From a bacterium (GTDB taxonomy: Bacteria > Thermosulfidibacterota > Thermosulfidibacteria > Thermosulfidibacterales > Thermosulfidibacteraceae), in the NCBI GenBank assembly GCA_027022065.1, contig JALVZS010000077.1:1-10982 (forward strand): a stretch of DNA of 10,982 bases. The letters are read 5' to 3'. Below the pieces are notes generated by a model. The model saw nothing but the letters and a program-made list of their open reading frames with translations, was not told where the DNA came from and did not search any database. The translations under genes and the position numbers were made by a program. Positions 2,942 to 8,401 of the stretch are shown here, piece by piece (within the stretch, counting starts at the first letter, position 1; every line of letters starts with the position of its first letter).

Positions 2942-3808
2942 ATGGGTGCGCAGATAAGGACCTTTCTGCTCTTAACGGTTTTAACCGTGCTTCTTGTACT
3001 TTTGGGAAGGGTTATTGGCGGACAAACAGGTATGGTTATAGCCTTTTGTTTTGCCCTTGTTATGAACTTCATATCCTACTGGTTCAGCGACAAGATCGTG
3101 CTTGCCATGTACAGGGCAAGGGAAGTATCTGAGGCCGAGTATCCTGAGCTTTACAGGATTGTGAGAAACCTGTGCCAAAGGGCCGGTCTTCCCATGCCCA
3201 GGATATACATCATACCGTCTGAGACCCCCAACGCCTTTGCCACGGGGAGAAACCCCAAGCACGCGGCAGTGGCGGTGACGGAGGGGCTCTTGAGGATGCT
3301 CAACGAGGAGGAGCTTGCCGGCGTCATAGGCCACGAGCTTGGCCATGTAAAGCACAGGGATATTCTGATACAAACGGTAGCTGCAACGGTTGTGGGAGCC
3401 ATTACCATGCTTGCAGACTGGGGTAGGTGGATGCTCTTCTGGGGAGCCATAGGAGGAGATGACGACAACAACAATCCCCTGGGGATCATAATTGCAATCA
3501 TCATGCTCATAGTGATTCCCATAGCGGCAGTTCTCATACAGCTTGCCATATCTAGGGCCAGGGAGTACTACGCAGATGAGGCAGGCGCCAAGTTCTGCGG
3601 CAATCCTCTCTACCTTGCAAGTGCCTTGAGGAAGATCGCCTATGGTGTTGAGAAAAGACCCATGGAAAACGCATACGCTGGAACAGCCCACATGTTCATT
3701 GTTAATCCCCTTAAGGGAGATGGCTTGACCGCCCTTCTTTCCACGCATCCCCCTGTGGAGGAGAGGATAAGAAGGCTTGAAGAGATGGCGAGAAGGGGCG
3801 TTGCTTGA
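2942..3808 (+). CDS. htpX: HtpX family membrane zinc metalloprotease
   Basis: Integral membrane M48 endopeptidase that, in E. coli, works with FtsH in quality control of misfolded membrane proteins. The product has 288 residues (E. coli 293). Two N-terminal hydrophobic segments (about 6-26 and 30-48) precede a cytosolic catalytic part. The zinc motif HELGH is at 131-135, and the third ligand is probably E208 in [10 protein letters not shown]. Two more hydrophobic stretches lie at about 143-167 and 187-207, separated by the hydrophilic loop [11 protein letters not shown]. The C-terminal [14 protein letters not shown] signature (267-280) is typical. The ATG at 2942 is supported by AAGGAGG at 2926-2932, 9 bases upstream. 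The stop is fused to the next gene as TGATG. I see no heat-shock or Cpx-type promoter directly upstream, so expression probably comes from the promoter before the M24 gene. Confidence 0.96.
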
Positions 3809-4860
3809 TGGAAAACCTCTGCCCCTTGCTGAGTAAAGATCCCGACAAGCTTTCGGAAGGCGAGAAAAGAATATTGCAAAACATTTTGTTAAACACGGTT
3901 AACTTTATGGTAAAGGCCAACATAGTTCCCCATCCTGACACCTTTATGAAGTGGTTCTTAACCCACTGCTATCTATACTCAAAGGGCATAAAGAAGCCCA
4001 CCTATGACGCCCTCTTCAACGCCTATGATCACATTGATGATGCGCTTTCAAAAGAAGAAGGCCTCACATCACAGAAAAAGAGCGAGATACAGCAGAAGCT
4101 GAACCTCTACAAGGTTATTATAAAGGAGCTTTACAAGCTCATAGATCAGCTAAACGCCATTATTGAAAATGCACAGAACAGGCTCCTTGAGGCCATTGGA
4201 AAGGTGCTTGAGAAGGATAAGCTGAGTAAAGAGGAGATAATGGAGGTTTACGAAACCTTTAGGGAGGTGAAGGCCAGCCTCACCGCTGAGGTGGAAAGGA
4301 TCATTGCAAGCATAAGGGGGATAGAGAGCAAGGTTGAGAGGGTGAAAAGGGAGATAGCTTCAGAACCTGTGGAGTGCATGAAGCCAACGGTATTTAAAGC
4401 GGTGGTGAGAAAGCTTATAGAGAGAAGCCGCCATACAGCAAGCAAGTTCTCCTTTGCCCTAGTCAGGGTGGATGAGTGGGAAAACTGGAAGGATGTGCCT
4501 AAAGAGGTGAAGGTGGAGTACATTGATAAGGTGTGCTCCACATTTAAGGAGGAGTTAAGAAGCGTTGATTATGTTTCGTATCTACCCGAACAAGAGCTTT
4601 TTGCGGTTATAATAAGGGGGATAGGGGTAAAAACCGCATACCAGGTGATGCAGAGGATACTGCCCAAGTTAAACCACCTCATTCACAGGTGGAGCGATGT
4701 TCTTCTTCAGAGTAGCTTCAGTATAGCCATTGTGGAGGGAAGACCAAACGACACCTTTGGAAGCCTGATAGAGCGGTGCAAAAGCGCCTTGCTTATGTGT
4801 CCTATAGAGAAGGACGGCTGCATAAGAACAGAAATAGATCTTATAGGAAAGAAACTCTAG
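3808..4860 (+). CDS. Degenerate GGDEF-domain protein with helical N-terminal region
   Basis: Predicted soluble protein of 350 residues. The N-terminal part (1-85) is helical and contains [10 protein letters not shown] (41-50), resembling a P-x-P-x-x-[FY]-x-x-W motif that I recall at the front of many bacterial GGDEF proteins. A long charged, coiled-coil-like region spans about 86-187. The C-terminal part (about 190-345) follows a diguanylate cyclase fold: [12 protein letters not shown] (216-227) corresponds to the D-x-D-x-FK strand, and [12 protein letters not shown] (258-269) to the RYGGDEFAVLL hairpin. The signature itself is PEQEL, so cyclase activity is unlikely. R251-S-V-D254 sits five residues before it, at the spacing of the c-di-GMP-binding I-site. 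It may be a c-di-GMP receptor or only a structural remnant. ATG 3808 overlaps the htpX TGA (TGATG), with AAGGGG about 9 bases upstream; an in-frame TTG at 3805 is a less likely start. Shares its stop tetranucleotide with convergent metF. Confidence 0.8.
4857..4860. other. CTAG tetranucleotide shared as stop codon by two convergent genes
   Basis: The palindrome CTAG gives TAG on the plus strand (4858-4860, end of the degenerate GGDEF gene) and TAG on the minus strand (4859-4857, end of metF). The two reading frames therefore overlap by 4 bases, and I find no hairpin with a T tract here. Confidence 0.95.
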
Positions 4861-5726
4861 CGCTTCTCAGGGATGCTTAGGGCCTTCAGTATCTGCTCCG
4901 TAGCTGGATACCTGTTGAGGGTGTAGAAGTGCAGGTACCTCACGCCGTTTTCCAGAAGGTCTCTGCACTGGTTTATGGTGTACTCTATGCCCGCCTTTTT
5001 TAGATCCTCAGGTTTATCCTTGAGCCTCTCTATGGTTTCCAAAAGCTCTTTTGGGATGGTTGCACCGCAAAGCTGGGTGAAGCGGACTATCTGGCTATAG
5101 CTGGTGATGGGCAGTATCCCTGGTATTATAGGAACTTTTACGCCTTTTGATGCGGCAAGCTCAACAAACCTGTAGTAGTACTCGTTTTTGAAGAAAAGTT
5201 GAGTTACCACGAAGTCCGCCCCCTTGTCCACCTTCAGCTTCAGATACTCCACATCCTTCTCAAGGGATGGAGCCTCAGGATGCCCCTCTGGATATCCGGC
5301 TACTCCCACGCAGAAGCCGTTGTTCTTGTGTATAAACTCCACAAGCTGGTATGCGTATCTAAAGCCGTCCTCAGGAGGCCTAAAGTCCGGGTCTTGGGGG
5401 ATATCGCCTCTTAAAGCGAGGATGTTCTCTATGCCGTGGAGCTTTAAAACATTCAGGGTGCCTTTTATCTTCTGTTTTGTTGAAGCTATGCAGGTGAGAT
5501 GGGCCACCACGTTGTAACCCCTTTCCTTTAAAGCCACCGCTATCTCTATGCTTTTGTCGTGGGTGCTTCCCCCCGCCCCGTATGTTACCGAGACGAAGTC
5601 AGGATTCCACCTCTTTAAGCTCTCCACCGTGTTCCAGAAGATCTCTTCATCTTCTGGTCTTTTGGGAGGAAAGAACTCGTAGGATATGATGAGTGAACCC
5701 TTCTTCAATATATCCCTTACCTTCAT
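4857..5726 (-). CDS. metF: Methylenetetrahydrofolate reductase
   Basis: FAD enzyme reducing 5,10-methylene-THF to 5-methyl-THF, the methyl donor for methionine synthesis. The product has 289 residues, close to E. coli MetF (296), i.e. the short form without the eukaryotic regulatory domain. Motifs in order: SYEFFPPK (15-22) with E17 as the catalytic acid (E. coli E28), [13 protein letters not shown] (47-59), HLTC (76-79), LRGD (105-108) with D108 near the flavin (E. coli D120), AGYPEGHPE (143-151), QLFF (176-179) and [11 protein letters not shown] (262-272). The ATG at 5726 overlaps the cobD stop as ATGA and has a strong Shine-Dalgarno of its own inside the end of cobD. Last gene of the cobS-cobD-metF chain. 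The position suggests that its product feeds a cobalamin-dependent methyltransferase such as MetH (inference). The 3' end converges on the GGDEF-like gene with no room for a normal terminator. Confidence 0.97.
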
Positions 5727-8017: not shown

Positions 8018-8401
8018 ATGAAGAGGCTTTATGCAGTGTTGATAGCCCTTCCCCTTTGCGCCTGTGCAGTGGCCATAGGAGCGGCAGGTGCGGGGGGAGT
8101 GGCGGGTTACAGGTATGTGAAGGGGGAGCTTCAGGTTACATACAAAAAGGACTTTGCTTCTGTATGGGATGCCACATTAAAGGCCCTTAAAGAGCTGAAG
8201 GTGAGGATCGTTGAGGAAAGCCACGATGAGGTGGAAGGTTATCTTAAGGGATACACGCCCTTGGGAAAGAAGGTGAAGATAAAGGCAAAAACCGATGGAA
8301 GATTCACAAAGCTCCGCATAAGGGTGGGCTTTATGGGAGACAAGGATTACGCTTTGGCCATAAAGTACAGGATAGACAGGATCTTAAAGGTGAAGATGTG
8401 A
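8018..8401 (+). CDS. Small putative lipoprotein, DUF3568-like
   Basis: Unknown function; 127 residues. A short basic start (MKR) and hydrophobic segment (4-15) lead to a plausible lipobox L13-C14-A15-C16, so C16 would be the lipidated residue and the protein would sit on the cell-envelope side of a membrane. An Ala/Gly-rich stretch (17-30) is followed by YVKGELQVTYKKDFASVWDA and ALKELKVRI, an arrangement I recall from the DUF3568 family of small bacterial lipoproteins; the assignment is from memory. The remainder alternates Lys-rich and hydrophobic residues consistent with beta strands (EVEGYLKGY, KKVKIKAK, KLRIRVGF). ATG at 8018 with GAGGAGG at 8004-8010 inside the preceding THEP1 gene. The stop lies 7 bases from the convergent purD stop. 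Without lipidation it would still be a single-span or secreted protein. Confidence 0.75.
   Translation: MKRLYAVLIALPLCACAVAIGAAGAGGVAGYRYVKGELQVTYKKDFASVWDATLKALKELKVRIVEESHDEVEGYLKGYTPLGKKVKIKAKTDGRFTKLRIRVGFMGDKDYALAIKYRIDRILKVKM

Follow-up and report, generated by a model that had tools for sequence, protein, structure and literature searches.

A degenerate GGDEF protein encoded beside htpX retains the I-site triad and is probably a c-di-GMP receptor

We propose that a 350-residue protein encoded in a 10,982-nucleotide stretch of DNA from a bacterium of the Thermosulfidibacteraceae (the window; source genome of 1.57 Mb, fragmented into 251 contigs) is a catalytically dead diguanylate cyclase that probably works as a soluble c-di-GMP receptor. 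Its GGDEF domain has lost every GTP- and metal-binding residue that we checked, and the three residues of its c-di-GMP inhibitory site (I-site), R251, D254 and R283, do not vary across the nine aligned sequences, degenerate and active alike. Novel here are the near-complete erosion of the domain with the I-site triad kept, an N-terminal domain without a name, and the overlap of its gene with htpX.

A GGDEF fold with an eroded active site

The open reading frame runs from an ATG at 3808 to a stop codon at 4858–4860. When the sequence was re-read, its limits and the positions that an earlier sequence-only reading had given for RSVD (251–254) and PEQEL (260–264) were all exact. The protein has the following features:

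3808–4860, + strand: degenerate GGDEF protein, 350 aa, soluble (open reading frame with translation, Pfam, AlphaFold2 and hydropathy)
3808–4062, + strand: N-terminal helical domain, residues ~1–85, common to the active cyclase paralogues
4063–4359, + strand: long helical coiled-coil-like linker, residues ~86–184, fast evolving (18% identity)
4360–4842, + strand: degenerate GGDEF domain, residues ~185–345 (sub-threshold Pfam match and predicted structure)
4465–4467, + strand: R220, which replaces the metal-binding D327 of PleD, with K or R at this place in the two nearest orthologues
4558–4569, + strand: RSVD, residues 251–254, primary I-site (PleD R359 and D362), from sequence and alignment
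4585–4602, + strand: PEQELF, residues 260–265, at the place of the GGDEF signature, with F265 as the signature F (orthologue alignment)
4654–4656, + strand: R283, secondary I-site arginine by alignment (PleD R390), equivalent to R395 of Bacillus cereus PelD (PMC7112168)

The C-terminal part matches the Pfam GGDEF model below threshold (E = 0.0028, 17.9 bits against a cut-off of 23.8). An AlphaFold2 model of the monomer (pTM 0.58), made from an alignment of nine relatives, has a mean pLDDT of 81, with residues 191–330 at 82–93, and shows the strand and helix order of a GGDEF domain. Foldseek and VIA-align matched this model to SiaD, DosC, PleD, SadC and DgcB; the closest folds are thus solved diguanylate cyclases, several of them bound to c-di-GMP, and PleD superposes over 157 residues at about 2.2 Å (VIA-align Z 20–21). 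The sequence-only reading, which had threaded the C-terminal part onto a diguanylate cyclase fold and suggested comparison of a predicted structure with PleD, was right on this point: the predicted fold is clearly that of a GGDEF domain, and RSVD lies just ahead of the strand that enters the signature hairpin, as in PleD. PelD is absent among the 50 structural matches listed, which is uninformative in either direction. The same reading had described a protein that lacks a membrane anchor and has a long coiled-coil-like region, and both descriptions hold: the highest 19-residue Kyte–Doolittle mean is 1.15, and the predicted long helices at 66–134 and 141–184 fit a coiled coil.

The three parts of the protein evolve at different rates, with identities between the window protein (P0001) and L004, its closest full-length orthologue, of 54% over the N-terminal 85 residues, 40% over the GGDEF domain and 18% over the coil. 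Because the N-terminal domain is the most conserved part, we consider it, from the alignment, a likely contact or input site. It is a small set of predicted helices with the pattern PxPxxFxxWF; scans of Pfam and NCBIfam gave no model for it, and a model of the isolated region had no Foldseek hit in the PDB at E ≤ 0.001, a single search that may miss a fold. The combination of such a domain (PxPxxYxxWF-like), a coiled coil and a GGDEF domain is common in the genomes examined and also outside their phylum (loci L002, L010, L012, L007 and L102–L107). In one other phylum the profile matches 121 of 136 genomes, and the six loci read there all have an intact GGEEF.

In the GGDEF domain of the window protein, both signature glycines and the metal ligands at positions 327 and 370 (PleD numbers) are replaced, as are the guanine-binding N335 and D344 and the phosphate-binding K442. 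Across the trio of the window protein, L004 and L005, D327 has become R or K, N335 K, D344 V or L, and K442 P or E. The absence of GG(D/E)EF and of the metal and GTP ligands rules against an active diguanylate cyclase. The signature region had been read as PEQEL, with RxxD upstream at the spacing found in PleD. This spacing is exact if PEQEL is taken as the signature, but in the orthologue alignment F265 falls on the F of GGDEF; the window protein has a one-residue insertion and therefore a longer hairpin, so that PEQEL is not an exact equivalent of GGDEF.

Selective retention of the I-site triad

We take R251, D254 and R283 to be the counterparts of R359, D362 and R390 of PleD, the first two being its primary and the third its secondary I-site residues. 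The orthologue alignment that the sequence-only reading had suggested as a check came out in its favour: across the degenerate clade, represented by four sequences of which one family supplies three, R251 and D254 never change (RSVD, RTMD, RATD and RGND) while the signature drifts (PEQELF, EEGIF, EEGTF and RGGTF). R283, the secondary I-site arginine, had been overlooked by that reading and is kept too.

Among the GGDEF domains of nine genomes of the order and two outside loci, RxxD is present in 42 of 43 intact domains and in 17 of 22 degenerate ones (13 of the 18 outside the clade). Nearly all GGDEFs of the order thus carry the motif, and we rejected RxxD enrichment as evidence. We instead asked which conserved residues survive. 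Forty-nine columns reach a consensus of at least 65% among the 43 intact GGDEFs, a threshold picked to take in R390 (30 of 43), and the trio keeps four of them: R359, D362, R390 and F372, the last being the core F265 of the window protein. Raising the threshold to 70, 80 or 90% leaves R359, D362 and F372. The naive hypergeometric probability that four retained columns of 49 include the whole I-site triad is about 2e-4, from few sequences and under an assumed independence that the columns do not have. In two other degenerate groups 14 of the 49 columns survive, with RxxD among them and R390 lost; the triad pattern is therefore specific to the clade of the window protein.

Other degenerate GGDEF domains occur in the order. 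One separate clade (L054, L056, L057, L060, L061 and L074, the last on contig C201 of the window's own genome, G000) carries signatures of the types SGAKM, GGAKM, GGSKI and TAAKF; it keeps R-x-F-D, N335 and D344 and has E at the secondary I-site position. Four GGDEF-EAL proteins of G000, on contigs C15, C177, C235 and C8, read SEEQF, EGDRF, WSDEF and KGDRF and keep RxxD before the EAL domain.

Descent from active diguanylate cyclases

Relatives were sought within the order of the genome. Three are degenerate: L004 (36% identity, genome G002), L005 (35%, G001, partial at a contig end) and L006 (28%, G003). Active paralogues with the same layout are L002, in the window's own genome, L010, L012 and L007. 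A contig scan for close relatives with the single protein as query gave no matches, and an alignment-based scan found only the three degenerate relatives already known.

A tree of 65 GGDEF domains places the degenerate clade (support 100/98) within a clade of active cyclases that share its N-terminus (99/97 and 95/89). L006 branches first and is half-eroded: its signature reads RGGTF, yet D327, N335, D344 and K442 are present. From this nesting and branching order we infer that an active cyclase lost its signature and then its pocket, while the I-site stayed. The clade would thus record a stepwise path, from an intact GG(D/E)EF through RGGTF with a GTP pocket to a fully lost pocket with the I-site kept. 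L004 and L005 differ by a dN of 0.24 with saturated synonymous sites, which points to purifying selection and not to a pseudogene; this saturation precluded a dN/dS ratio for most pairs.

Two of the active paralogues, L002 (575–1633) and L010 (1447–2535), lie directly after a gene for a CBS-domain (CorC/HlyC-like) membrane protein, an apparently conserved pairing of cyclase and membrane protein in both genomes.

Comparison with known systems and alternative explanations

Several established receptors resemble the window protein. PelD of Pseudomonas aeruginosa and B. cereus is likewise a degenerate GGDEF with an I-site triad; in B. cereus, R363, D366 and R395 are all needed for c-di-GMP binding (PMC7112168), and their spacing (+3, +32) equals that of R251, D254 and R283. 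PelD differs in being membrane-anchored, with a GAF domain and a place in a pel polysaccharide operon, whereas the window protein is soluble, has an N-terminal helical domain and coiled coil, and lies beside htpX. It is not PelD proper: it has no hydrophobic segment and no GAF match in Pfam, and its neighbours are an M24 peptidase gene, htpX and metF. PopA of Caulobacter, an established degenerate-GGDEF receptor with an intact I-site, acts in CtrA degradation by ClpXP (review PMC12564702) and is thus protease-linked. However, PopA is a PleD paralogue of the response-regulator type that works with the cytosolic protease ClpXP, whereas HtpX is a membrane metalloprotease; the Pfam scan gave no receiver-domain match for the window protein, and PopA proper was rejected as well. 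SgmT of Myxococcus xanthus combines a degenerate A-site (GGGVF) with an RHPD I-site, through which it binds c-di-GMP, and has another arginine 31 residues further along; R763 is needed for binding, and R794 is named in the secondary site (PMC3509222). It differs as a GAF-kinase-receiver-GGDEF hybrid histidine kinase. CdgA of Bdellovibrio, with GVNEF and an RxxD five residues upstream, is inactive and binds c-di-GMP at about 2 uM (PMC3271064), but it belongs to another lineage, has another partner and is located at the prey-facing pole. The active cyclases L002, L010, L012 and L007, from whose clade the window protein descends, share its order of N-terminal domain, coil and GGDEF and differ in keeping GG(D/E)EF and a full substrate site. 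A c-di-GMP receptor of the PopA/PelD/SgmT/CdgA type is the best reading.

We weighed this reading against three others. RxxD and R283 might be structural or ancestral leftovers in a non-binding scaffold for protein-protein contacts, and the frequency of RxxD in the intact and in the other degenerate GGDEFs of the order (13 of 18 in the latter) makes a structural or ancestral reason possible. The sequence-only reading had itself cautioned that the motif may simply remain from an active ancestor. That caveat is serious for RxxD alone and loses force in view of the other family-conserved residues, almost all of which have been replaced: 45 of the 49 went over the same time, and R390, lost in the two other degenerate groups, was kept in this clade. 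Moreover, RxxD occurs in just 44–57% of GGDEFs overall (PMC3974145), and the fold therefore does not need it. We consider such leftovers unlikely.

Less likely again is a pseudo-cyclase subunit that pairs through its N-terminus and coil with L002, an active cyclase of like architecture, and so tunes it; the retained I-site would then serve for cross-inhibition within a mixed oligomer. L002 is encoded in the same genome, has the same N-terminal domain, a coil and an intact GGDEF, and belongs to the group in which the degenerate clade nests; I-site conservation would be expected here too. However, the coil, which would carry the specificity, is the fastest-evolving part, and the operon partner is htpX, not the cyclase. 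Finally, some degenerate GGDEFs are active, such as VCA0965 with AGDEF (PMC3974145), and the window protein could be a diguanylate cyclase with an unusual signature, like some AGDEF and SGDEF proteins; the replacement of both glycines and of all the metal, guanine and phosphate ligands listed above makes this extremely improbable. A c-di-GMP receptor is thus the reading that we carry forward. The sequence-only reading had proposed an inactive GGDEF kept for this role: the inactive site and the I-site conserved against a drifting signature both stand, and c-di-GMP binding itself is a prediction from sequence. The genome has 19 GGDEF, 6 EAL and 3 PilZ matches, with intact GG(D/E)EF proteins among them, and the organism can therefore feed a receptor.

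Genomic association with htpX

The gene closes a run of three on the same strand, followed by a convergent gene:

1711–2913, + strand: M24-family peptidase (PepQ-like), with which the putative operon begins
2942–3808, + strand: htpX, zinc metalloprotease with HELGH at residues 131–135 and stop codon TGA at 3806–3808
4857–5726, − strand: metF, which overlaps the stop codon of the GGDEF gene and marks the 3' end of the operon

The identity of htpX is supported by NF002826 (395 bits against a cut-off of 369), the HExxH motif and hydrophobic segments. Its stop codon and the ATG of the GGDEF gene overlap by one base, 3808. A KamA-family radical SAM gene lies divergent upstream of the three-gene run; with metF convergent at the other end, M24, htpX and the GGDEF gene form a closed block that is probably co-transcribed. 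We found no sigma-70-like promoters between 1500 and 5000 of the window, which says little. Further along (8018–8401, + strand), after a THEP1-like NTPase gene, the window encodes a 127-residue protein with a lipoprotein-like start and no NCBIfam match.

The coupling to a membrane protease gene pointed out by the sequence-only reading is borne out by the shared base and by recurrence of the gene order M24-htpX-GGDEF in a second genus (G002); in G001 contig ends break the order, but both sides fit. In five genomes of a sister family htpX occurs without the GGDEF gene and, wherever its flank was read, next to M24; the relative in G003 adjoins an inositol-monophosphatase-like gene and not htpX. 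The pairing with HtpX is thus real but local, covering one family and two genera, and regulation of HtpX is therefore offered as a hypothesis and not as a rule.

Proposed function

We propose that c-di-GMP, probably as an intercalated dimer, would bind across two neighbouring domains, at R251 and D254 on the first and at R283 on the second. Binding may change the arrangement of a dimer or tetramer, and this change could pass through the coiled coil to expose or hide the conserved N-terminal helical domain, which would contact a partner. The likeliest single partner would be HtpX, or a substrate brought to HtpX, and the protein would then be a c-di-GMP-responsive adaptor, in concept what PopA is for ClpXP. 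HtpX as the output of the receptor is a tentative suggestion, and more tentative still is the full proposal of a degenerate GGDEF receptor acting as an HtpX adaptor through which membrane protein quality control would be adjusted to the amount of c-di-GMP. Links between the two have been touched on elsewhere: htpX is among the genes with c-di-GMP-dependent transcription in Erwinia (PMC9371280), and a study of the Escherichia coli cyclase DgcE tested HtpX as its protease and discussed it together with FtsH, the single knock-out having no effect (PMC6510439). Inactive I-site sensors of c-di-GMP are known and few are characterised; in the literature we found none described beside a membrane protease, and no degenerate GGDEF paired with HtpX or acting as an adaptor with such a protease. 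If the proposal is true, control of HtpX by c-di-GMP would tie a lifestyle signal to membrane protein quality control.
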